DNA of 64,000 nt from an uncultured Eubacterium sp. (GTDB taxonomy: Bacteria > Bacillota > Clostridia > Oscillospirales > Acutalibacteraceae). This document shows, in pieces, positions 29,568 to 40,042 of this stretch. The notes under the pieces are model-generated. The model did no database searches. It saw only the letters and a list, made by a program, of their open reading frames with translations, and was not told where the DNA came from. The DNA lies in the NCBI GenBank assembly GCA_944380545.1, contig CALWHV010000005.1, positions 1-64,000 on the forward strand, in the 5' to 3' direction. A program made the translations under genes and the position numbers. How positions within the stretch are numbered: the first letter of the stretch is position 1; every line of letters begins with the position of its first letter.

Positions 29568-29903
29568 ATGGCAAAAAGAAAAAAGAAGACGGTGCAGGAG
29601 GAGGTCTGCGAGGGCTGCCGCAGGCTGGCGTTCGGCAGCGTGCGCGACGCCGCGGCCCTGCTTTTTACGCCGGAGGAGGAGATAATCGAAAAGCTGCCGG
29701 AATACGACCTTTTCAATATCAGCGAGATAAAAAGGCCCAAGGGCGGCGGTATGGAGATAAAATTCTACAACAGGCTCGATGCGCTTCAGAAGCTCTGGGA
29801 GTTTTCGCTCAGCGAATCGGGCGAGCCGCTCAGCTTTTATCAGGCGCTTGAGGAAAGCGCAAAAAAGGCGGCGGGCGCTTTGGACGGCGATAATGCAAAG
29901 TAA
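29568..29903 (+). CDS. Terminase small subunit-like protein
   Basis: A 111-residue protein with basic start (KRKKKTVQEEVCEGCRRL). The segment FNISEIKRPKGGGMEIKFYN, followed by RLDALQKLWEF, resembles the end of PBSX XtmA-type small terminases, where a beta strand pair precedes a helix. The N-terminal HTH of full-length small terminases is missing, so it is shorter than usual. It overlaps the large subunit gene by 11 bp, which supports the role. The start is ATG 29568 with ACGGAGGAC upstream. Partner recognition could still occur through the C-terminus, but pac-site binding may be lost. Confidence 0.65.
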   Translation: MAKRKKKTVQEEVCEGCRRLAFGSVRDAAALLFTPEEEIIEKLPEYDLFNISEIKRPKGGGMEIKFYNRLDALQKLWEFSLSESGEPLSFYQALEESAKKAAGALDGDNAK

Positions 29904-31152
29904 GTTTTATCCGTTTTCAAAAAAGCAGCTTGCCGTTCTCACCTGGTGGTGTGCGGGCAGCCCGTCAGCGGGCAGAAACGGCGTTATATGCGACGGCGCC
30001 GTGCGCTCCGGCAAAACGCTTTGTATGAGCATATCGTTCGTGAGCTGGGCGTTTTACAGATTCAGCGACGCCTCCTTTGCCATCTGCGGCAAAACGATAG
30101 CCTCGCTCAGGCGCAATGTTGTAACGCCGCTGCTGCCGGTGCTGCGCTCGCTCGGCTTTCGCTGCGAGCTGAAGCTCAGCCGCAATCTGCTTGAGGTGGA
30201 AAGGGGCGGCAGAAGAAACCGCTTTTATCTTTTCGGCGGGCGCGACGAATCCTCCGCGTCCTTGATTCAGGGGATGACCCTGGGCGGCGTTATGCTGGAC
30301 GAGGTTGCGCTGATGCCGCGCTCCTTCGTTGAGCAGGCGCTTGCAAGGTGCTCGCTTCGCGACTCAAAATACTGGTTCAACTGCAATCCGGAGCATCCCT
30401 ACCACTGGTTTTATAACGAGTGGATTCTTAAATCGCAGCAGAAGAATATGCTGTATCTTCATTTCACGATGCAGGATAATCCCTCGCTCGGGCGCGATGT
30501 TATAGAACGCTACAAAAGCCTTTATTCCGGCGCGTTCTACGAGCGGTTCATCGAGGGCAAATGGGTGGCGGCGGACGGGCTCGTGTATCCGATGTTCAGC
30601 GCAAAGCTGCACCTCAGGGAGCCGCCGGGCGAGCCGGAGCAGTTCTATCTCTCCTGCGATTACGGCACCGTCAATCCCTTTTCCCTCGGCCTGTGGGGAA
30701 GATGCGGCTCAAAATGGTACAGGATAGGCGAATACTACCATTCGGCAAGGGACAGCGGCGTGCAGCTTACGGACGAGGAATATTACGCCCGTCTGCGCCG
30801 CCTTGCCGCGGGGCGCAGGATAGAGGCGGTGGTGATAGACCCCTCCGCCGCCAGCTTCTGCGAAACGGTGCGCCGCCACGGCGAATACAGGGTGGTGCGC
30901 GCAAACAACGATGTGCTGCGCGGGATCAGCCTTGTGTGCCGCGCGCTCAAGGAGCAGGCGGTGTTTTTCAGCCCGCGGTGCGAGGACACGGTGCGCGAGT
31001 TCTCCGTTTACCGCTGGGATAACGACATCAAAAGAGATTCGCCTAAAAAAGAAAACGACCACGCGATGGACGATATCCGCTATTTTGTTTCCACCGTTTT
31101 ATATGCCGGCGGTTCTGGGGATATCTGCACCTTCGCGGTAGAAAGGAAGTGA
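29893..31152 (+). CDS. Phage terminase large subunit (PBSX type)
   Basis: A 419-residue packaging motor. Walker A GAVRSGKT (35-42), Walker B with adjacent Glu VMLDEVALM (about 133-141), and the coupling motif region NPEHPYHWFYNEW follow. The nuclease domain keeps three acidic sites: SCDYGTVNP (about 254), VVIDPSAASF (about 312) and DHAMDDIRYF (about 388). All catalytic features therefore appear intact, notable in a cassette lacking tail genes. The start is ATG 29893, overlapping the small subunit gene. Confidence 0.93.
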   Translation: MQSKFYPFSKKQLAVLTWWCAGSPSAGRNGVICDGAVRSGKTLCMSISFVSWAFYRFSDASFAICGKTIASLRRNVVTPLLPVLRSLGFRCELKLSRNLLEVERGGRRNRFYLFGGRDESSASLIQGMTLGGVMLDEVALMPRSFVEQALARCSLRDSKYWFNCNPEHPYHWFYNEWILKSQQKNMLYLHFTMQDNPSLGRDVIERYKSLYSGAFYERFIEGKWVAADGLVYPMFSAKLHLREPPGEPEQFYLSCDYGTVNPFSLGLWGRCGSKWYRIGEYYHSARDSGVQLTDEEYYARLRRLAAGRRIEAVVIDPSAASFCETVRRHGEYRVVRANNDVLRGISLVCRALKEQAVFFSPRCEDTVREFSVYRWDNDIKRDSPKKENDHAMDDIRYFVSTVLYAGGSGDICTFAVERK

Positions 31153-31156
31153 ATGC

Positions 31157-32290
31157 TTGGGGCTTATCGGCAAAAGAAAGCGCCGTTCGGCAGCCCCGCC
31201 GCCGGTGCAGACCTCGGCGGGCGTCGGGCGCGAGCTTTCGCGCTTCAGCGGCTTTTCAAACCTTGGGCTCAACGCCGGCGTTTACCGCTCACTCAGGGAA
31301 AATGTGCCGGTCATAGACGCCGCTGTGATGAAGATCGTGCGCCTTGTGAACGATTTTTCCTTTGAAACGGGAAACGAGCGGGTCGACGAGGCTATGAACG
31401 CCTTTTTTGAGGAGATACCCGTCGGCGGCAACCAGACGGGCATAAGCGCGTTCGCCGCCTCGTATCTGAGCGACCTTCTTACCTACGGCAGCGCCTGCGG
31501 AGAAATGATAGCCGATGATTACGGCTTTTACGCCCTGAATAACGGCGAGCTGTGCGCGCTTGAGGTGAGGCGCGCGGAAAACGGTCTTGATCTGGAGTTT
31601 TACAATTCCGGCAAAAGGCTCAAAAGGCAGGAGCTGATACTTTTTTCCGCTCTTGACCCGCAGCCGGGGCAGATAATGGGCACCAGCCTGCTGCGCGGTC
31701 TGCCGTTCATCGGCGATGTGCTGCTCACGATCTACAACACCATCGCCAGAAACTGGGAGCACGCCGGAAATATCAGGTATGCCGTAACATATAACCCGCG
31801 CGACGGCGAAACGGACGCGCAGACGGCGCGCGAGCGGGCGCAGCAGATATGCCGCGCCTGGCAGGACGCGATGAGCAGCACCGACCGCGTTAAGGATTTT
31901 GTTGCCGTGGGCGATGTCAGCGTAAAGGTGATAGGCGCGGACAGCAATGTGCTTTCAAGCGAGATACCCGTGCGTCAGCTGCTTGAGCAGATCGTGGCGA
32001 AAACGGGGCTGCCGCCGTATATGCTGGGCTTTTCGTGGTCCACAACGGAGCGTATGAGCCTTCAGCAGGCGGATATGCTCACAACGGAGCTTGAGGCGTA
32101 CAGAAAGGTGCTTACGCCCGTGCTGCTCAAGATCGCGCGAAAATATCTTGAGCTGAATTCGCTTTGCCTGAGCGTAAGGGTAAAATGGGAGCCAATAACG
32201 CTTCAGGATGAAACGGAGCTTGCCAGGGCGCGGCTTTACGACGCCCAGGCGCAGAATCTGCAAAAGGAGGGCGCAGAGGATGAGGATTGA
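31157..32290 (+). CDS. Phage portal protein
   Basis: A 377-residue portal of the SPP1/PBSX-like type. After a basic linker, the body contains INNGE-like and FYN-rich strands (ALEVRRAENGLDLEFYNSGK), SALDPQPGQIMGTSLLRGLP, and TGLPPYMLGFSW-x-TTERMS, the usual portal signature where the protein forms the wing and stem of the dodecamer. TTG 31157 is the start, seven bases after AGGAAG; ATG 31153 is in another frame. It overlaps the next gene by 11 bp. Confidence 0.88.
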   Translation: MGLIGKRKRRSAAPPPVQTSAGVGRELSRFSGFSNLGLNAGVYRSLRENVPVIDAAVMKIVRLVNDFSFETGNERVDEAMNAFFEEIPVGGNQTGISAFAASYLSDLLTYGSACGEMIADDYGFYALNNGELCALEVRRAENGLDLEFYNSGKRLKRQELILFSALDPQPGQIMGTSLLRGLPFIGDVLLTIYNTIARNWEHAGNIRYAVTYNPRDGETDAQTARERAQQICRAWQDAMSSTDRVKDFVAVGDVSVKVIGADSNVLSSEIPVRQLLEQIVAKTGLPPYMLGFSWSTTERMSLQQADMLTTELEAYRKVLTPVLLKIARKYLELNSLCLSVRVKWEPITLQDETELARARLYDAQAQNLQKEGAEDED

Positions 32291-33236
32291 ATCAATAAAG
32301 GCGTATGATCCGGACGCCGGAGATTACGAAAAGATCTCGCATTTCACGCGGCGCAGCTTTTCGCCGCAGGAGCTTTATGTGTTTGAGGCGGTGCTTTGCG
32401 ACAACGATATAGACCGCGATTTTGAAAGCTTTTCCCTGCCGGCGCTTTACGAGCTGCAAAAGCTTTTTATCGGCAAGACCGGCATAAAGGACCATTCAAT
32501 GCTTTCAAGCGACCAAACGGCAAGAGTGTTTGACACGCGCGTTGAAAAGGTGCCGGGGATGAAAACGGCGGGCGGTGAGGATTACGCGGCGCTCAAGGCA
32601 AAGATCTATATGGTGCGCACGGCTGAAAACGAATCGCTGATACGCGATATAGACGCCGGCATCAAAAAGGAGCTGTCCGTTTCCTGCCGCGCGGAAAAGC
32701 GCGTCTGCTCCGTTTGCGGCAGGGATAAGAACGCCGCCTCCTGCCGCCATATTCCCGGCAAAACATACGGGGGCAGGCTTTGCCACATAATTCTTGACGG
32801 CATCAGCGACGCGTATGAGTTCAGCTTTGTTGCCGTGCCCGCGCAGCGCAACGCGGGCGTTAAAAAATCATTTGAAAAGGATTCGGTGAATATGACGGAC
32901 GATATTTTCACAAGGCTCAAATCGGGCGGCGCAGAGGTGTCGGACGACGAGGCTGCGGCAATCGTAAAGCGCTTCAGCTCGCTTGAGGACGACGCCGAGC
33001 TCGGCAGGCGGTACAGAAGCGACCTTGTGGACGACATTGTTAAGCTCTGCGCCGCGCAGCTTCCGGAGCTGGACACGGGCGTGTTCAAAAGGCTTGCCGG
33101 AGTGATGACGGCAAACGAGCTTATAAGCTTTAAGCGCGCGTTTGAAAAGCGCCGCGCTTCGGATTCGCGCCCGGCGCCGCAGCTTGCCTCGGCGGGGAAA
33201 GCAGACGGCGACGAGCTTAAGGAATTTCGCATTTAG
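32280..33236 (+). CDS. Prohead protease-like protein (XkdF position)
   Basis: A 318-residue protein that sits between portal and capsid, as phage proteases do. The N-terminal half shows YVFEAVLCDNDIDRDFESFS and IKDHSMLSSDQTARV (a candidate catalytic His-Ser region), then YEFSFVAVPAQRNAGV, the typical closing strand of the Herpesvirus-like protease fold. A CSVCGRDKNAASCRH insertion (about 141-155) may bind zinc. The C-terminal region (about 210-318) is helical and could act as a scaffold. ATG 32280 overlaps the portal end. Alternatively it may be an XkdF head protein without activity. Confidence 0.72.
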   Translation: MRIESIKAYDPDAGDYEKISHFTRRSFSPQELYVFEAVLCDNDIDRDFESFSLPALYELQKLFIGKTGIKDHSMLSSDQTARVFDTRVEKVPGMKTAGGEDYAALKAKIYMVRTAENESLIRDIDAGIKKELSVSCRAEKRVCSVCGRDKNAASCRHIPGKTYGGRLCHIILDGISDAYEFSFVAVPAQRNAGVKKSFEKDSVNMTDDIFTRLKSGGAEVSDDEAAAIVKRFSSLEDDAELGRRYRSDLVDDIVKLCAAQLPELDTGVFKRLAGVMTANELISFKRAFEKRRASDSRPAPQLASAGKADGDELKEFRI

Positions 33237-33248
33237 GAGGAAAATTGA

Positions 33249-33593
33249 ATGAGAATAGGCTTTAAAGGCTTTATGGAGCAGGTTATAACCTTTCCGGCGT
33301 CCGCAGAGGTAAAGGCGGGCTATCCCGTTACGATAGCGGATACCGGTCTTATTGCAAACAGCGCCGCGGACGCGGAGTTTGCCGGCGTTGCAACGGCAGG
33401 CGGCGCGGAATACGCGCCCGTTATGGTGAGCGGCTACACAACGCTTTCGTACAGCTCCGGCACGCCGAAATGCGGCTGGCAGTATATCACGGCGGACGGA
33501 AACGGCGGCGTTAAGATAGCGTCGAGCGGCAAAAAGGCGCGCCTTGTTGTGGAGACGGACACCGCCGCCAAAACGATAGGCGTTATACTTTGA
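33249..33593 (+). CDS. Head decoration-like protein
   Basis: A 114-residue beta-rich protein located between protease and capsid genes. Composition and layout (AGYPVTIADTGLIANSAADA, then repeated G-x-x-T and V-x-V strands) resemble DUF2190/head decoration proteins that stabilise capsids. The match is by position and pattern only. ATG 33249 has AGGAGGAAAA before it. Confidence 0.6.
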   Translation: MRIGFKGFMEQVITFPASAEVKAGYPVTIADTGLIANSAADAEFAGVATAGGAEYAPVMVSGYTTLSYSSGTPKCGWQYITADGNGGVKIASSGKKARLVVETDTAAKTIGVIL

Positions 33594-33611
33594 TAACGGA
33601 GGTATATTTTT

Positions 33612-34604
33612 ATGGCATTTGATAATTTAAGGCTTGATAAGGGGCTTTATGCCTCCCCAAAGGGCTTTACGGCTTCGCTTGAGGCGGCTGACCCGTCCGA
33701 AAACTACAAGGGCACCGCGCTTGAGGGGCTGGACGCGTATCAGCGCCAGCTCAAAAGATTCGGCATCAAGGTTTCGGGCGCCGGCTCCGATTCGGTGTCT
33801 AAATTCTTCCAGACCGGCGATTCGGCGGTGCTTTTCCCCGAATATGTCAGCCGCGCCGTGCAGCAGGGTATGGAGGATGCGGACCTGCTTTCGCAGATAA
33901 TCGCAACCACCACTCAGGTGGATTCGCTCGATTACCGCTCTGTTGAAAGCGTGCCGGCCGATGAGGAAAAGGAGCTTGCAGCCGTGGGCGAGGGCGCCTT
34001 TATACCCGAAACAACGATAAGGGCAAAGGACAAGCTTACGCGCCTTCACAAAAGGGGCAGGATGCTCGTTGCCTCCTATGAGGCGATAAAGTTTCAAAAG
34101 CTTGACCTCTTCACCGTAACGCTCAGGCAGATAGGCGCGTATATCGCGCGCTCACAGTTTGCGGACGCGATAGATGTGCTGCTTGACGGCTCGTCCGAAA
34201 CGCTTGAGAGCGCGGGCAGCGCCGTTTCCTATCAGGATCTTATCGATATGTGGGCGGGGCTTTCGCCGTACAGGATGACAACCGTTATCGCCGGCGTTCC
34301 CTCAATCTCCGCGCTGCTCAATATGGAGCAGTTCAGGGATTCCGCCGCGGGTCAGGATTTCCACGGCACGGGCAGAATGATAACCCCGCTCGGAGCGCAG
34401 GTGGTGCGCTGCGATAAGCTGGGCGGCGAAAAGCTCATTGCGCTCGATAAAAGCGCAGCGCTTGAAAAGGTGTGCGCCGGCGGCGTTGCCACGGAGTACG
34501 ACAAGCTGATAGACAGGCAGCTTGAAAGAGCAACCGTTACGGCGATAACCGGCTTTTCAAAGATATTCCCCGACGCCTGCAAGATAATGCAGATAGGCGA
34601 ATGA
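33612..34604 (+). CDS. Major capsid protein (HK97-like)
   Basis: A 330-residue protein. The sequence shows the usual capsid layout: an acidic/helical start, SVSKFFQTGDSAVLFPEYVS, a hairpin and long helix (FVxTLRQIGAYIARSQFADA), TTVIAGVPSISALLN and a final strand VTAITGFSKIFPDACK. The sequence LYASPKGFTASLEAADPS at the start could be a delta segment cleaved by the protease. The ribosome site ACGGAGGTA is followed by ATG 33612. It is the longest structural gene of the cassette. Confidence 0.83.
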   Translation: MAFDNLRLDKGLYASPKGFTASLEAADPSENYKGTALEGLDAYQRQLKRFGIKVSGAGSDSVSKFFQTGDSAVLFPEYVSRAVQQGMEDADLLSQIIATTTQVDSLDYRSVESVPADEEKELAAVGEGAFIPETTIRAKDKLTRLHKRGRMLVASYEAIKFQKLDLFTVTLRQIGAYIARSQFADAIDVLLDGSSETLESAGSAVSYQDLIDMWAGLSPYRMTTVIAGVPSISALLNMEQFRDSAAGQDFHGTGRMITPLGAQVVRCDKLGGEKLIALDKSAALEKVCAGGVATEYDKLIDRQLERATVTAITGFSKIFPDACKIMQIGE

Positions 34605-34620
34605 TGAAAGGAGCGCTGCG

Positions 34621-34968
34621 ATGATAGACACAGCGGCGGTTGCCGAAAGCCTTGCGGAGCTTGGGATACCGCACAGCGAGCAGCAGGGGCTGGGCGCCGT
34701 GGTCGGCTTTGCCTGCGGCGCAGTAAGCTCAAGGCTGAGTGATAAAACGCTTGAGGCGGACCCGCGCGCCTCGTTTCTTGCGGCGGCGCTGGCAAACTAT
34801 CTGATTTGCTGCGGCTCGCAGTCGCAGGGCTTCGACTCCTTTTCCGCGGGCGATGTTTCGTTCAGCGTTTCCTCACAGCGCGCCGAGAATGCAAGGCTGG
34901 TGCTCAGCGCCGCCGAAAAGGGCGCCGAGGGGTTTCTGGGCGGCGCGTTCGATTTCAGGGCGGTGTGA
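34621..34968 (+). CDS. Head-tail connector-like protein (XkdH position)
   Basis: A 115-residue mainly helical protein right after the capsid gene, at the position of head-tail connector proteins (gp6/XkdH). Helices are suggested by AAVAESLAELGIPHSEQQ and RASFLAAALANYLICC. I cannot make a firm family call. ATG 34621 has AAAGGAGCG upstream, and the stop TGA directly abuts the next ATG. Confidence 0.5.
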   Translation: MIDTAAVAESLAELGIPHSEQQGLGAVVGFACGAVSSRLSDKTLEADPRASFLAAALANYLICCGSQSQGFDSFSAGDVSFSVSSQRAENARLVLSAAEKGAEGFLGGAFDFRAV

Positions 34969-35322
34969 ATGAACAGGGCTGAACTTATTAAAAAAGGGCT
35001 GAGGGACGCGGGCAAGCAGGTGTATTTAAAGGACGGCGAATGGATCTCTACCCCGTTTTTTGCGGTGATCGCTCAAAAATACCGTGCCACAAGGTCTAAT
35101 TTTGAATATGTGCGCACTCCTTTGGGCAGGTCCAGCCGCGATTATTTCACCTTTATCGGCCCTTACGACCACAATATTATGTCTCTTTCCGAAAGCGCCC
35201 GCGTGCTTTTCGGGGACGAGGAATATGTTTTCAGAAAAAAGGAAGAGGTCTCTGTCGGCGGCGAAAAGCTGTTTTACTGGGGCATTTTAAGAAAGGTGTG
35301 GAACGGCGATGATAAAACTTGA
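34969..35322 (+). CDS. Head-tail joining-like protein (XkdI position)
   Basis: A 117-residue protein whose start follows the upstream stop without a gap. A beta barrel is suggested by strand-rich sequence (GEWISTPFFAVIAQKYRAT, EEVSVGGEKLFYWGILRKVW). Its position matches head closure or adaptor proteins of phages of this order. Overlaps the next frame by 14 bp. Confidence 0.5.
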   Translation: MNRAELIKKGLRDAGKQVYLKDGEWISTPFFAVIAQKYRATRSNFEYVRTPLGRSSRDYFTFIGPYDHNIMSLSESARVLFGDEEYVFRKKEEVSVGGEKLFYWGILRKVWNGDDKT

Positions 35323-35716
35323 CGAGCTGTGCCCGCTTGCGCTCGATAAGCTGAGGGCAGACGAATATTTTGAGGGCTTCGGGCTTACCTGCGCGTTTGA
35401 GCCGCTCGAAAGACCCACCGTTCCCGCTAAGCCCGCCGTCGTTTGCGGAATAGCACAGGTCAGCGCGCAAACATCCGCCCTTGAAGAGGAATGTGCGGCG
35501 GGCAGCGTAAGCATGTTTGCCGATATTTATATCCCCTTTGATTTGCGCGGCTTTGATATTCGGCAGGCGGCGGTAAGGGCGCTCAAATGCCTTGCGGCAA
35601 GGCCGGCGGTGCGGTTTGAAATAGGGCAGGTAAGGGCGGATAACGCGGCGGAATGCTTCGTTATGCGCGTAACGGTTGCCTTTTCGGGCGAAATATCGCT
35701 TCTTCCGGCAGACTGA
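35309..35716 (+). CDS. Tail completion/connector-like protein (XkdJ position)
   Basis: A 135-residue protein. DIYIPFDLRGFDIRQAAVRA and LAARPAVRFEIGQVRADNAA suggest an alpha/beta fold as in tail terminator proteins, which cap the tail tube. The tube gene that should follow is absent. ATG 35309 is preceded by AAAGGTGTGG. The family call is by position and weak pattern. Confidence 0.5.
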   Translation: MIKLDELCPLALDKLRADEYFEGFGLTCAFEPLERPTVPAKPAVVCGIAQVSAQTSALEEECAAGSVSMFADIYIPFDLRGFDIRQAAVRALKCLAARPAVRFEIGQVRADNAAECFVMRVTVAFSGEISLLPAD

Positions 35717-35735
35717 TTTATACACGGTGATAAAG

Positions 35736-35822
35736 ATGGATTCATATGAAGAGATTTGTGAATTTTCCGAGTATTTAAGGCACGATTCAAAAAGGTACGA
35801 CCCTTCGTCGGCAGAAGAATAA
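35736..35822 (+). CDS. Possible 28-residue ORF at the missing tail-gene junction
   Basis: ATG 35736 to TAA 35822 encodes a 28-residue acidic/basic peptide beginning MDSYEEICEFSEYL. A GGTGA stretch at about 35727 could be a ribosome site. It fills the only gap in the cassette, where sheath, tube, chaperone and tape-measure genes would lie. It could be a remnant of one of those genes or a real small protein. I do not recognise it. Confidence 0.35.
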   Translation: MDSYEEICEFSEYLRHDSKRYDPSSAEE

Positions 35823-35836
35823 CTTCGGAGAAAAAT

Positions 35837-36349
35837 ATGATAAGGCTTAAATACAAGGATTTTGAATTTTTGCGCAATCCGTCGGTAATAAGCGTGGAGC
35901 AGTCAAAAAAGCTCAGCGAGCGCACCCTGCCGTTTTCGGCGGGGAGCGCCGTTGACGAGATCGCTCTGCGTCCGGCAAGAATATCCGTCAGCGGCAGCTT
36001 TTACGGCTCCGGCGCGTCCGCCGCCGCGGCAAGGCTTGCCGCCCTTTATAACGACGGCGGCGCGGGCGAGCTGTTTTTGCCCGCAGGCGAATATTTTGTT
36101 GCCTTCCTTTCGGATATGCGCCTTGAGTTTGACGCGCAGAAAAACGCATTGGAATATTCGCTGAAGTTTACGGAAAGCGGCTTTGGAAAGCCGTATAAAA
36201 GAAAACGCCGCTGCGTGTTTGCGCGCGCGGGGCAGAACTGCTTTGACATCGCCTTTGAAAACGGCGTTTCGGTGGATGATGTGGTAAGGCTAAACGATCT
36301 TGAAACGCCGTTTTCCGTAGAGGAGGGTCAGGCGGTGAGGATAAGATGA
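35837..36349 (+). CDS. LysM-containing tail/baseplate protein (XkdP position)
   Basis: A 170-residue protein. The N-terminal 115 residues are beta-rich (FEFLRNPSVISVEQSKKLSE, GSFYGSGASAAAARLAAL), then AGQNCFDIAFENGVSVDDVV with LNDLETPFSVEEGQAVRI forms a LysM domain at the end. This matches the XkdP/gp53-like tail proteins that sit between tape measure and hub. It overlaps the next gene by 4 bp. Confidence 0.72.
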   Translation: MIRLKYKDFEFLRNPSVISVEQSKKLSERTLPFSAGSAVDEIALRPARISVSGSFYGSGASAAAARLAALYNDGGAGELFLPAGEYFVAFLSDMRLEFDAQKNALEYSLKFTESGFGKPYKRKRRCVFARAGQNCFDIAFENGVSVDDVVRLNDLETPFSVEEGQAVRIR

Positions 36350-37311
36350 CGGTAAGGCTTTACGACGGCGGCGGCGCGGAGCTAGAAGATCTTGAGCTGA
36401 GCTCCTTTGAGCTTGTGAGCGAGGAGTCGGCGGCGTGCGACGGGCTTTCCGCCGTGTTTTACGCCGAAGGCGTAGAAAGGATATACGGCGCGCGCACGGC
36501 GCAGGTATACAGCGGCGGCGAAAAGGTGTTTTTCGGCTATGTTGATTCCGTTCGCGCGGCGCAGGATGAAAACGGGCTTCGCGTGTATGTTTACGCGCGC
36601 TCCTCCGCCTGTCTGCTCGTTGACAGCGAGGCGTTTCCGGGGCAGTACAGCTGCCCCACCTCGCGCCAGCTCTGGCATATGCACGCAAAAAGCTTCGGCT
36701 TCGGCTTTGCGCTGCCCGAGATCGCCTCCCAGCACGATTATGTTGTAACCAAGGGGCAAAGCTGCTTCGGCGCGATAAACACCTTTATGCAGTACGCCTG
36801 CGGGCGCGGGATATATGCGGACGCCGAAAACAATCTCAGGCTGCTCGATTCAAGCGGCGCTCCGGCTCAGCCGGACACGGGCAGGCTGATAAGCGCAAGC
36901 GCAAAGGCGGACAGAAGCTCGGTCATCGGCAGGATAGACTACAAAATCTCGTCCGGCGAAAAATATCTGCACCGCCTTGCAAGCGGCTTTGCGGAGAAAA
37001 ACGGCGTTTCCTCAAGAAAGCTCATCAATCTTTCCGCGCTCCCGCCGTGGCAGCGCGAGGCTGAGGCTCAGCGCAGGATAACGCGCTCGCTTGAGGGCTT
37101 TTTCACCGTTACGGCCGTGTTTGACGGCGATCCCGGCGTGCGCCTTGCGCAGCGCGTTTTCCTTGAACTGCCGGGCCTCGGCGTTTCGGGAGAGCTTATC
37201 GCCTCTTCAATCATACGCAAAAAAGACGAAGATTCGCAGCGCACAACGCTTGTGCTGAGAAAGGAAACGGACGGGGAGCTGAAAAACTATGTGGCTGAGC
37301 AGGAGATTTAA
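36346..37311 (+). CDS. Baseplate hub protein (XkdQ/gpD-like)
   Basis: A 321-residue protein of the late control D/XkdQ type, which forms the trimeric hub at the end of contractile tails. Strands such as VYSGGEKVFFGYVDSVRAAQ and VYVYARSSACLLVDSEAFPG match the beta-barrel start, and the central QHDYVVTKGQSCFGAINTFM with YADAENNLRLL is typical. ATG 36346 overlaps the previous stop in ATGA fashion. Confidence 0.75.
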   Translation: MTVRLYDGGGAELEDLELSSFELVSEESAACDGLSAVFYAEGVERIYGARTAQVYSGGEKVFFGYVDSVRAAQDENGLRVYVYARSSACLLVDSEAFPGQYSCPTSRQLWHMHAKSFGFGFALPEIASQHDYVVTKGQSCFGAINTFMQYACGRGIYADAENNLRLLDSSGAPAQPDTGRLISASAKADRSSVIGRIDYKISSGEKYLHRLASGFAEKNGVSSRKLINLSALPPWQREAEAQRRITRSLEGFFTVTAVFDGDPGVRLAQRVFLELPGLGVSGELIASSIIRKKDEDSQRTTLVLRKETDGELKNYVAEQEI

Positions 37312-37642
37312 CGCCGGCGCTCAGAGCGCGGCGGAAAGCGGCGTGGTAACGCTCAGCGAGAACGGCGTTACGGACGCAAGCTCGTCGCTTCCCGCGCGAA
37401 ACGCGGGCTGCTACGCGCCCTACGGCTATTGCGCCGCCGTGCCCGTGGGCGAGGAGGTGCTCGTTATAAACGGCGCCTCCGGCGCGGCGGTGGCGGGCGC
37501 TAAAATGCGCGCGTCAAGCCTTGAGCAGGGCGAGATAGAGCTGCGCTCGCGCGGCGGGGCGAGCATCGTGCTCAAAAACGACGGCAGCGTGGTGATAAAC
37601 ACGCTTGTTATTGACAAAAACGGAAATATAGCGGAGGGGTGA
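37289..37642 (+). CDS. Small baseplate/spike-like protein (XkdR/gpV-like)
   Basis: A 117-residue protein overlapping the hub gene by 23 bp. The C-terminal part (GEIELRSRGGASIVLKNDGS, then VVINTLVIDKNGNI) resembles the OB-fold to beta-helix end of baseplate V proteins, but the N-terminal OB part is short. It may be a reduced spike. ATG 37289. Confidence 0.55.
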   Translation: MWLSRRFNAGAQSAAESGVVTLSENGVTDASSSLPARNAGCYAPYGYCAAVPVGEEVLVINGASGAAVAGAKMRASSLEQGEIELRSRGGASIVLKNDGSVVINTLVIDKNGNIAEG

Positions 37643-37647
37643 GCGGT

Positions 37648-37923
37648 ATGTTTATATTTGAAAGCGAAGGCGAATACTGCGATCGCCTGCTGCAAAACGC
37701 GGCGGCGGCGATAAGCACGAAGCGCGGCGAATTTTATCCGCAGTGCGATTACGGCTGCGAGCTCGCCGGCGCCGATAAAAGCGAGCGCGCGCTTTCACAG
37801 GCGAGGCGGGCGCTGAAAAACGCGCGCGGGATTTTTCCCGTAAGCGCGTGTGAAACTCAAAAAGGCTGGAGCTTTTCGCTTTTGGTAAACGGTGTTGAAA
37901 GGCAGGTGAGCGCGGAGCTTTGA
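37648..37923 (+). CDS. Baseplate wedge protein (gp25/XkdS-like)
   Basis: A 91-residue protein, or 94 from GTG 37639. ISTKRGEFYPQCDYGCELAG and the paired ALSQARRALKNARGIFPVSA resemble the gp25/DUF2634 proteins that begin contractile-tail baseplate wedges. ATG 37648 sits nine bases after GGAGGG and is preferred. It overlaps the next frame by 4 bp. Confidence 0.6.
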   Translation: MFIFESEGEYCDRLLQNAAAAISTKRGEFYPQCDYGCELAGADKSERALSQARRALKNARGIFPVSACETQKGWSFSLLVNGVERQVSAEL

Positions 37924-38993
37924 GCGTTCTTTACAACGACATAATTAAAGCGATGGAAACGGAATTCTTCAACGAGTGCGGCGAATACGCGTCGGATTAC
38001 GACGATGTGGAGCTGCGCTTCAAGGCGGTGGCGGGCGAGATCTATGCCGCGCACACAGCCGCCGAATACGCGATGCGTCAGGCGTTTGCCCAAACGGCAA
38101 GCGGCGAATATCTTGATATGCACGCCGAGATGCGTGGAATCACAAGAAAAACGGCGGCTTCGGCGTTGGGCGAGCTGACCTTCACCCTGCCGCAGGAGCT
38201 GGAATACGATGTTCAGATACCGGCGGGCACCGTCTGCTCCGTCAGCGGAGAGCCGCTCGTGCAGTTCGTAACGGACGAGGGCAAAACGATACCCGCGGGC
38301 AGCCTGAGCGCAACCGTGCCGGCAAGCGCGCTTGCGCCGGGAGCTGCTTTCAACGCGGGCGCGGGCGCCGTTACAGTTATGGTGAACCCGCCGGAATATG
38401 TGCTTTCGGTAACAAACGAAAGCGCGTTCACCGGCGGCTGCGACGAGGAGACGGACGAGGCGCTCAGAGAAAGGCTGCTGCGCTCCTATTCCCAGCCGAC
38501 TAACGGCGCAAACGCCAAATCGCTCGAAGAGCAGCTTTTAACGATAGACGGCATAACGGACGCCCGTATCGCCGCCGACCCTGAGCAGGCGATGCTTACG
38601 GTGTGCGTGCGCACGAAAAGCGGCGCGTTTCCGGACGGCGATATGCTGAAGCTCATTCAGGAAAAGCTGGGCATACTTGAAATCTGCGGGGCGCAGTACG
38701 GCATCGCGCTTGCAAGACCAGCGCTGTTTTCGGTGTTTGCGGCGGTGCGCGCCTCTGCCGGAGCGGACAAGAAGCAGCTTGCAGCCGATGCTCAAGGCGC
38801 GGTTCGCGCCGTATGCTCTGCGGCGGGTATAGGGCGTGAGATAAGCCTTTCGCAGCTCACCTCCGCCGTGCTGGCGGTGCAGGGCGTTGAATCGGCGGAG
38901 ATATCGGCGTCGCCGAGCGCGGGCGGCACGGTCTCCTGCGGCGCGCACGAATATCTCTCGCTTTCTCAGGTGCAGGTGGATGTGTATGAATGA
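37920..38993 (+). CDS. Baseplate J-like protein (XkdT)
   Basis: A 357-residue wedge protein. YMDMHAEMRGITRK-like start (EYLDMHAEMRGITRK), LPAGTVCS-type region, GCDEETDEALRERLL and GANAKSLEEQLLTIDGITDA are characteristic of gpJ/XkdT, as is the closing ESAEISAS with a TVSCGAHEYLSLSQV strand. TTG 37920 overlaps the previous stop codon (translational coupling). This gene marks a contractile-tail ancestry. Confidence 0.88.
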   Translation: MSVLYNDIIKAMETEFFNECGEYASDYDDVELRFKAVAGEIYAAHTAAEYAMRQAFAQTASGEYLDMHAEMRGITRKTAASALGELTFTLPQELEYDVQIPAGTVCSVSGEPLVQFVTDEGKTIPAGSLSATVPASALAPGAAFNAGAGAVTVMVNPPEYVLSVTNESAFTGGCDEETDEALRERLLRSYSQPTNGANAKSLEEQLLTIDGITDARIAADPEQAMLTVCVRTKSGAFPDGDMLKLIQEKLGILEICGAQYGIALARPALFSVFAAVRASAGADKKQLAADAQGAVRAVCSAAGIGREISLSQLTSAVLAVQGVESAEISASPSAGGTVSCGAHEYLSLSQVQVDVYE

Positions 38994-39546
38994 CGCGGTT
39001 TTTAAACGGCTGCTCGGCGTTCTTGAGAGCGTGAGCCTTGCGGGCGAGGAGGGCAGCCCTAAGCGGGCCGAGGCGAGGGCGTACGCCGCCGCGATCTCGG
39101 CAGCGGCACAGCGCTCGCGCGCGGCGCTTGAGGAGGCGTTCGTGCAAACGGCGGGTGAAAAGGGGCTTTTGATGTTTTGCTCGCTTCTCGGCGCAGAGCC
39201 GCTTGACGATTTGGAGGAAACGCGAAAAAAGCTTGCCGGTCTGCTGGCGCGCGGCGCGTTCATCCTCGGCAGCGAGGAGTTCAAGCAGGCGCAGGAGGCG
39301 GTGCCGGGACTCAAAGCGGAATATACGCTTATGGGCGAGCATATCACCGTTGACCCGGTAACGCGCGAATCGCTTGAGGAATTTTCGCGGCTTTTAAACG
39401 ATTATTATCCGGCGTTTCGCACGCCGGATATGGCGGGCGGCGGGCTCACCTGGGACGAGCTGGACGGCTTTGATTTCAGATGGTACGAGCTTGATTTGCT
39501 GCGCCTGCCGTTTTATATTTGGGAAAGGCTCGGCGCGGCGGATTAG
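38986..39546 (+). CDS. XkdU/DUF2313-like baseplate protein
   Basis: A 186-residue protein following baseplate J, where PBSX has xkdU. FLGVLESVSLAGEEG-like start, AAQRSRAALEEAFVQTAGEK and a Pro/Trp-rich C-terminus (YYPAFRTPDMAGGGLTWDEL, GFDFRWYELDLLRLPFYIW) fit baseplate proteins that link to fibres. ATG 38986 lies 6 bp after AGGTGG; ATG 38980 is also possible. It overlaps the J gene by 8 bp. Confidence 0.65.
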   Translation: MNDAVFKRLLGVLESVSLAGEEGSPKRAEARAYAAAISAAAQRSRAALEEAFVQTAGEKGLLMFCSLLGAEPLDDLEETRKKLAGLLARGAFILGSEEFKQAQEAVPGLKAEYTLMGEHITVDPVTRESLEEFSRLLNDYYPAFRTPDMAGGGLTWDELDGFDFRWYELDLLRLPFYIWERLGAAD

Positions 39547-39565
39547 CGCCGGGGGAAAGGAAGAT

Positions 39566-40042
39566 ATGAGCGCAACAAACCAAACCTCGTTTCTGGGGCT
39601 TTCAAGCTGGCTTTCGGGTGATAAGCCGCAGAGAAGCGATTTTAATTCCGACAATCAAAAGGTGGATGATTTTGCGGCGGAGCACACCGCGGATATGCAG
39701 CACCACCTATCTGATGAGGACAGGGAAAAATTCGATCTGCCGTATTATATGGGCGTCTATTACGGCGACAATCAGGCAAGCAGAACCGTGGCGACCCAGT
39801 GCCCGTTTGAGCCGCAGCTCTGTATGGTGTTTTGCATAAACTCGGCGGTTCAGCAAAGCGATTTTGAAATCGGCAGAAGCGTAAACCGCGTGGGGTTAGC
39901 CTCCGTGCGCGGCGGCACTCCCGGAATCGGCATCTCGGGCTGCAACATCACGGTGCAGAACATAGATGCTTTTGCCTCAAGCGATGAATGGATACGCCTT
40001 AACGAAAGCGGAAAAACATATTTTTATTTTTTGCTCAGATAG
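39566..40042 (+). CDS. Short tail fibre-like protein
   Basis: A 158-residue protein. The opening (TSFLGLSSWLSGDKPQRSDF, NSDNQKVDDFAAEH) is the common start of phage tail fibre proteins, where an early hinge is followed by the shaft. Only about 120 more residues follow, with a beta-rich tip (GTPGIGISGCNITVQNIDA, ending TYFYFLLR), so this is far shorter than most fibres. ATG 39566 follows GGGGGAAAGGAAG. A terminator follows at once; no fibre chaperone, holin or lysin is seen. Confidence 0.65.
   Translation: MSATNQTSFLGLSSWLSGDKPQRSDFNSDNQKVDDFAAEHTADMQHHLSDEDREKFDLPYYMGVYYGDNQASRTVATQCPFEPQLCMVFCINSAVQQSDFEIGRSVNRVGLASVRGGTPGIGISGCNITVQNIDAFASSDEWIRLNESGKTYFYFLLR

Follow-up and report, generated by a model that had tools for sequence, protein, structure and literature searches.

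What connects the head of a phage-like particle to its baseplate when the genes for the tail shaft are missing? The window, by which we mean the whole 64,000-nucleotide stretch of DNA analyzed here (contig CALWHV010000005.1, from an uncultured Eubacterium sp. of the Acutalibacteraceae), poses this question at a spacer of 120 bp between con3, which stops at 35716, and a LysM gene that starts at 35837. The first-pass annotation pointed out that sheath, tube, chaperone, and tape measure lie at this place in PBSX-type clusters and that the spacer here holds a short open reading frame (ORF), which it suggested could be either a scar or a selected small protein replacing the shaft. The junction itself is confirmed from the sequence and its translation: GGTGA, a ribosome-site-like sequence, occupies 35726 to 35730 on the forward strand, 5 nt ahead of the ATG at 35736, and the ORF (35736..35822, forward strand) encodes MDSYEEICEFSEYLRHDSKRYDPSSAEE, 28 amino acids with no match in Pfam or PHROG. 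A 28-codon ORF by itself is within what chance would give, and conservation was therefore used as the test of its status as a gene. The translation, together with the conservation and selection described below, identifies a peptide gene whose product we propose as a minimal tape measure.

Gene content of the cluster and the missing tail shaft

The cluster around the peptide gene comprises 17 genes (29568 to 40042; all features below are on the forward strand), and homologues of its genes were counted over 95 loci, made up of the window, two named relatives, and 92 family matches. The first gene (29568..29903) is TerS-like, named by its position before TerL, with no Pfam match and with homologues in 83 of the 95 loci. 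It is followed by the gene for the large terminase TerL (29890..31152, a start that we chose, the longest frame beginning at 29779), which matches PF03237 (E value = 6e-14 for the frame from 29779; 85/95 loci). The portal-position gene (31157..32290; 89/95 loci) and the prohead protease-position gene (32277..33236; 90/95 loci) are likewise named by position and have no Pfam match. Next come a head decoration or virion structural protein (33249..33593; phrog_4588, E value = 1e-17; 61/95 loci) and the major capsid protein (33612..34604; PF25209, E value = 2.5e-14; 91/95 loci). Two neck genes are named by position, con1 at the adaptor position (34621..34968; 93/95 loci) and con2 at the stopper position (34969..35322; 86/95 loci), the latter being fused to a tube in some relatives.

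The functions of the genes on either side of the spacer were examined by predicted folds. PDB sequence searches with profiles of con3 and of the N-terminal domain of the LysM protein returned nothing useful. The AlphaFold2 (AF2) model of con3 (35309..35716; pLDDT 89) matches the lambda gpU terminator 3fz2_D (Z score = 10.9, 121 residues aligned, root mean square deviation [rmsd] = 3.3), the diffocin collar chain (Z score = 10.6, 121 aligned, rmsd = 2.7), and the RcGTA virion chain 6tba_4A (Z score = 10.5, 120 aligned, rmsd = 3.4). The LysM protein (XkdP-like; 35837..36349; PF01476 and phrog_184), whose model has a pLDDT of 92, matches 8fqc_U1 of phage Milano (Z score = 13.8, 114 aligned, rmsd = 2.2), 9g8s_S of phiCD508 (Z score = 12.6, 169 aligned, rmsd = 10.1 over two domains), and the diffocin baseplate chain 8v3w_T (Z score = 12.4, 114 aligned, rmsd = 1.9). 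The phiCD508 entry gives its LysM chain the name "gp61 - Tail tube initiator," and tail-tube proteins also match the model at lower Z scores. The predicted folds are thus those of a tail terminator for con3 and of a tube initiator for the LysM protein, and in the window a terminator would be followed directly by a tube initiator.

Downstream lie a baseplate hub (XkdQ-like; 36346..37311; phrog_177, E value = 1e-9), a spike (37289..37642; profile match to 9ki1_V, "Baseplate puncturing device gp45," Mu-type, E value = 4e-4), and the baseplate wedge protein gpJ (37920..38993; PF04865, E value = 9e-39). The gp25/XkdS-position gene (37639..37923) and the gpI-position wedge protein (38986..39546) are named by position, each having no Pfam match and homologues in 90 of the 95 loci. 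The last gene, at the fiber position (39566..40042; 60/95 loci), matches phrog_33092, a family of unknown function, over its first 46 residues. With the LysM tube initiator, hub, spike, and gpJ wedge, a contractile-type baseplate set of the XkdP-Q-S-T type is present. None of the 17 ORFs matched an integrase or replication gene in Pfam, and no holin or endolysin was recognized among them; most had no Pfam match at all. The 10 flanking genes scanned are housekeeping genes, namely, [FeFe]-hydrogenase subunits on the 5' side and pantothenate kinase, DUF1015, M28 peptidase, polA, acetyltransferase, tsaD, and PEPCK on the 3' side.

Profile searches and gene content agree with the first-pass annotation that sheath, tube, chaperone, and a full tape measure are missing from this cluster. 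The sheath profile PF04984 had no match at an E value of 0.001 in the whole genome of the window; it matched the Bacillus subtilis positive control and does detect the sheath of a sheath-bearing relative of the cluster (5e-12). The XkdM tube profile PF09393 likewise had no match in the genome and matched the B. subtilis control, a weak test given that this model misses the tube of the lineage studied here. A tube profile built from the lineage itself matched in none of 11 genus genomes; of 5 control genomes that had not contributed to the profile, it matched in 4. Within the cluster there is also no chaperone and no long tape measure. The sheath and tube that define a contractile-tailed phage or tailocin are absent from the window's cluster.

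Conservation and selection of the 28-residue peptide

The LysM protein was found in 50 of 60 genomes of the genus (own genome included), as a rule in a single copy. The genus set consists of long stretches for 44 of these 50 positives and for one further genus genome (L034), that is, 45 distinct genomes in 46 rows (L159 duplicates L033). The same junction is present in all 46 rows, and conservation in relatives, which the first-pass annotation had proposed as a check, is complete at this level: every one of the 46 rows has the peptide directly 5' of the LysM gene, at a length of 23 to 41 residues by our choice of start. Its core is ISEYLRLDSKRYD or a close variant, its start overlaps the terminator gene in 27 of the 46 rows, and a ribosome-site-like sequence, judged by eye, usually precedes it. 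It occurs in one further genus genome (G303) as well; the count leaves out G355, in which the contig ends there, and G304, G315, G332, and G338 among the 50 positives.

Pooled over 17 close pairs, three of which share the window triad, the pN/pS ratio of the peptide was 0.25, compared to 0.39 for the terminator (14 pairs), 0.30 for the LysM protein, 0.24 for con2, and 0.14 for the capsid; pooled values were below 0.4 for all five cluster genes measured. In 11 disjoint pairs, pN/pS was 0.18 when read in the frame of the peptide, and the two alternative frames gave 1.80 and 2.03. For a wider comparison, we used 186 loci, composed of the 95 loci described above, 38 more from the genus, and 53 from IMG/VR (of 80 there, 27 had no LysM match). 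A profile of the peptide was trained on family loci that are themselves among the 186 scored. At the site itself, 163 of the 186 loci gave 10 bits or more; of the 86,764 ORF segments from the rest of these loci, 13 scored that high. Sheathless loci with no match to the peptide do exist (e.g., L062, L079, L081, L084, L091, L104, and L120).

The 28-residue ORF is a selected gene. That several tail genes are gone and that the LysM gene is split in G338 would fit a decaying prophage in which the peptide is a deletion scar, and these points have to be set against the presence of the peptide in every genus row, at one and the same junction, with pN/pS values of 0.18 to 0.25 (capsid, 0.14) and with constraint specific to its frame. 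Apart from the split in G338, the LysM gene is also uninterrupted by stops among the matches listed for the 50 positive genus genomes. We reject the scar and the decaying prophage on conservation and frame-specific selection and regard them as extremely improbable. Of the two options offered by the first-pass annotation, the selected small protein therefore stands and the scar falls. Random variation of the gap among relatives, which it had named, along with a lack of similarity to tail genes, as evidence to the contrary, was not seen; the gap falls into few classes, and the motif recurs in every one of them.

Junction classes among relatives and the identity of the peptide

The 186 loci range from complete shafts to junctions such as that of the window. 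Sheath, tube, and chaperone occur together in 29 loci and sheath and tube in 3; a separate tube is present in 54 loci, one of them with a chaperone. Terminator-tube fusions account for 19 loci (e.g., con3-tube in L058, L080, and L088), of which L114, L124, and L096 were classed by ORF length alone with no tube-profile match, and stopper-tube fusions with no terminator account for 15 (e.g., con2-tube in L041, L050, and L061). L239 was read as truncated. A terminator with no tube is found in 46 loci (45 of the window's genus plus L038), neither tube nor terminator is found in 13, and 7 are unresolved. In a FastTree phylogeny built from 167 loci, the states changed 4 times for the tube, 6 times for the sheath, and 7 times for the fusion, counted with no direction assigned. 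A fusion of the tube to the terminator or to the stopper would permit just one tube ring, and relatives in which the tube is fused to con3 or con2 are what would be expected if there is a single tube ring. Across all these classes, the peptide motif stays at the same place, while the sequence upstream of it varies.

The gene next upstream of the LysM tube initiator is at the tape-measure position, and here this is the peptide gene; in phage phiC2 (DQ466086), an annotated tape measure of 762 amino acids sits at the corresponding position. Among the 29 loci with sheath, tube, and chaperone, the motif ends an ORF of 95 to 265 residues (longest start) ahead of the LysM gene in 22 by profile, with a score of at least 10 bits for the motif in 18. 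The remaining seven have no profile match; four of them (L269, L288, L296, and L299) show the motif by eye, and L076, L109, and L237 lack a separate ORF with the motif and have motif-like residues at the end of the chaperone ORF, which suggests a chaperone-tape fusion. In other families of the order, the motif ends ORFs of 163 to 276 residues in 8 of 13 loci, at 6.5 to 26 bits. Since the motif ends the ORF at the tape-measure position in most loci that have sheath and chaperone, this ORF is most simply the tape measure itself. No sequence similarity was found between the peptide and a recognized tape measure in Pfam, in PHROG, or at the end of the phiC2 protein, the one recognized tape measure compared, which does not carry the motif.

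Two other origins have to be weighed here. A tail assembly chaperone is the G or frameshifted T product, and the peptide could be a remnant or minimal form of one, kept to guide assembly of the baseplate or neck. The chaperone ORFs of L076, L109, and L237, ending as they do in motif-like residues with no separate peptide ORF, point that way; against it, L097, L110, and L067 have both a chaperone and a motif that ends a separate ORF behind the chaperone, L097 and L110 have a further 51-residue frame between the two, and in L055 the tube, the chaperone, and the peptide each have an ORF of their own. We consider a chaperone origin unlikely. Slightly less unlikely, in our judgment, is that the peptide is a separate small structural protein, either plugging the channel or clamping the terminator and initiator rings together, that never derived from a tape measure and became fused to a real one in the sheath loci. 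A motif that stays constant while everything upstream varies would suit such a protein, as would the missing sequence link to known tape measures, whereas its occurrence at the tape-measure position, where it ends the ORF in most loci with sheath and chaperone, speaks for a tape measure.

Median lengths of the ORF with the motif by longest start were 176.5 residues with sheath, tube, and chaperone, 71 with sheath and tube, 48 with a tube, 43 with a terminator fusion, 30 with a stopper fusion, 35 with a terminator only, and 36.5 with neither; by the best ribosome-site start, the corresponding medians were 130, 67, 44, 42, 30, 32, and 33. Sheath loci have ORFs of 54 to 265 residues (longest start) versus medians of 30 to 56 in the sheathless classes, and sheath and long ORF agreed in 3.7 of 4 independent pairs, with none opposite, a number of pairs too small to reach significance (P value = 0.125 at best). 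Among sheathless loci, it is not supported that peptide length tracks tube loss. Independent sheathless pairs comparing presence of a tube with a peptide of at least 38 residues gave means of 1.0 with, 0.4 against, and 1.5 with no difference. Comparing terminator plus tube or more with fewer rings gave, in the same order, 0.7, 0.3, and 0.9 at a cutoff of 36, 0.9, 0.2, and 0.9 at 38, and 0.6, 0.2, and 1.2 at 40. Peptides are no shorter in loci with neither tube nor terminator than in terminator-bearing loci (medians of 33 versus 32), and an arithmetic of one ring per 27 residues, into which the former loci do not fit, is not claimed.

Work on other particles shows what the end of a tape measure may do. 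What is resolved of the tape-measure end in diffocin is a C-terminal helix of 23 residues (795 to 817), which is bound to the spike trimer, according to the available text of PMC11329794. In TP901-1, as described in the portion of PMC5099701 available to us, tail length drops linearly with tape-measure length, a tail of zero length extrapolates to a tape measure of 127 residues, and the N- and C-terminal parts are essential. We moderately favor the reading that the peptide is a tape measure remnant, namely, the C-terminal end that docks in the hub and spike, in a domesticated and nearly tailless particle that is probably a gene transfer agent (GTA). This would modify the idea that the small protein replaces the shaft: the evidence favors a trimmed tape-measure C terminus that survived the loss of the shaft over a substitute for it.

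The arrangement that we infer, from tape-measure identity and docking to ring order, stoichiometry, and DNA packaging or transfer, would be as follows. The cluster at 29568 to 40042 would encode a domesticated phage-derived particle with a DNA-packaging head, a neck ended by the terminator, and a contractile-type baseplate, with no sheath, tube, or chaperone. The peptide would be the surviving C-terminal segment of the tape measure and would dock inside the hub, against the N-terminal helices of the spike. No tube ring would be added once the remainder of the ruler had been lost, and the terminator ring would directly cap the tube-initiator ring, so that the baseplate would sit on the neck. 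The peptide may have been kept for seeding the hub and spike complex or for plugging the channel until release, and the particle would most likely carry fragments of host DNA.

Inheritance of the cluster and its possible role

At the level of the family, the LysM protein was found in 93 of 300 genomes (own genome included), with one match in each, representing 45 of 135 genera. A profile of the initiator N-terminal domain matched, at a threshold of 1e-6, 7 of 391 genomes in a sample of the class, six of them from the window's family (own genome included) and the seventh (G905) a weak match; full-length homologues of the LysM protein were also found in three other families of the order. A search of the order with the full LysM profile (139/295 genomes) was dropped as a measure of distribution, being swamped by matches to the LysM domain only. 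Host genes (pantothenate kinase, DUF1015, or M28) lie downstream of the cluster in 34 of the 46 genus rows, the contig ends within 1 kb of the cluster in 4, and more than 4 kb of downstream sequence lacks the usual host neighbors in 8, so that the position of the cluster is mostly, not always, conserved. Vertical retention of a phage-like cluster in a single copy and under purifying selection is a feature of GTAs and was found here; the lack of Pfam matches to integrase or replication genes in the window's cluster is a second such feature.

Relatives of the capsid occur on 298 IMG/VR contigs (80 kept, L232 to L311), and many of these, classed as viruses, may be domesticated clusters encoded by a host. 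A 46.7-kb GenBank record named "Bacteriophage sp." (L195, MT835508) holds only the head half, from terS to con3, next to an apparent ribosomal-protein operon (by eye) and is likely host chromosome. Faecal "Bacteriophage sp." records, of which this scaffold is one, were not used as evidence of packaging, since they may include contamination. In L091 and L120, head, tube, LysM, and hub genes are kept, and no spike, gp25, gpJ, or gpI gene was detected on that strand in the ~9.6 kb that follow, an arrangement reminiscent of the split operons of FpGTA.

Known particles resemble the cluster in part. The tail of RcGTA is siphovirus-like. RcGTA, from Rhodobacter capsulatus (PMC7296036, available text), is a gene transfer agent with a virion chain that matches con3, in a different host phylum. 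Diffocin and PBSX-type particles share with the cluster the order of tape-measure position, LysM initiator, hub, spike, and wedge, and diffocin shares the predicted folds of terminator and initiator; they differ from it in having a sheath and a tube as well as a tape measure, of 762 residues in phiC2 (DQ466086) or 817 in diffocin (PMC11329794, in part), none of which the window's cluster has. Another particle that resembles it is FpGTA of Faecalibacterium, for which the available text of PMC12946183 (Borodovich et al. 2026) describes a 10.5-kb operon with TerS, TerL, portal, and capsid genes, together with baseplate and fiber genes, and lacking replication genes; its authors report it from each of the twelve Faecalibacterium genomes that they examined. 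FpGTA particles are capsids of ~40 nm with no identifiable tail and with ~9 kb of DNA. By description, FpGTA and the window's cluster are alike in coming from gut Clostridia and in their head, baseplate, and fiber genes, and the particle of the window's cluster would likewise be nearly tailless. In contrast to the window's cluster, FpGTA is split: a second operon, which in one strain lies ~125 kb from the first and which was detected in some strains only, carries the baseplate genes along with holin and endolysin. The particle is called podovirus-like. The same source describes a GTA cluster for Faecalibacterium only, does not use the term "tape measure" in its main text, and reports GTA-like packaging of host DNA in other gut Clostridia, one of which yielded capsids with no visible tail. 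No other paper on this cluster or peptide was recognized in a literature search that mostly did not extend to subscription journals and preprints.

A cargo of host DNA is not the only role that a tailless particle could have. A PBSX-like alternative, raised for FpGTA itself in the available text of PMC12946183, would make the particle a capsid with a killing or signaling baseplate that carries no DNA, which would leave the reading of the peptide unchanged. Against this alternative stand the terminase and head genes kept in most loci and the packaging of host DNA that the same text reports for other gut Clostridia; we regard it as improbable, if slightly less so than the rival origins considered for the peptide.

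On a broader scale, we tentatively propose, at somewhat less than an even chance, that the clusters form an old GTA family of one order of gut Clostridia that shed its tail stepwise, first losing the sheath and chaperone and then the tube, which in places was first fused to the terminator or stopper, and that its tape measure shrank to a 28-residue, zero-length ruler, the smallest known. Because relatives range from a sheathed tail to no tube, these natural variants could be used to test the minimum that a tape measure has to do, initiation or plugging as opposed to measuring. The clusters are also candidates for the host-DNA packaging reported in gut Clostridia outside Faecalibacterium (PMC12946183, available text) and would account for the tailless look of such particles. 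Among the 298 IMG/VR contigs with capsid relatives, some may represent clusters encoded by the host and not viruses.
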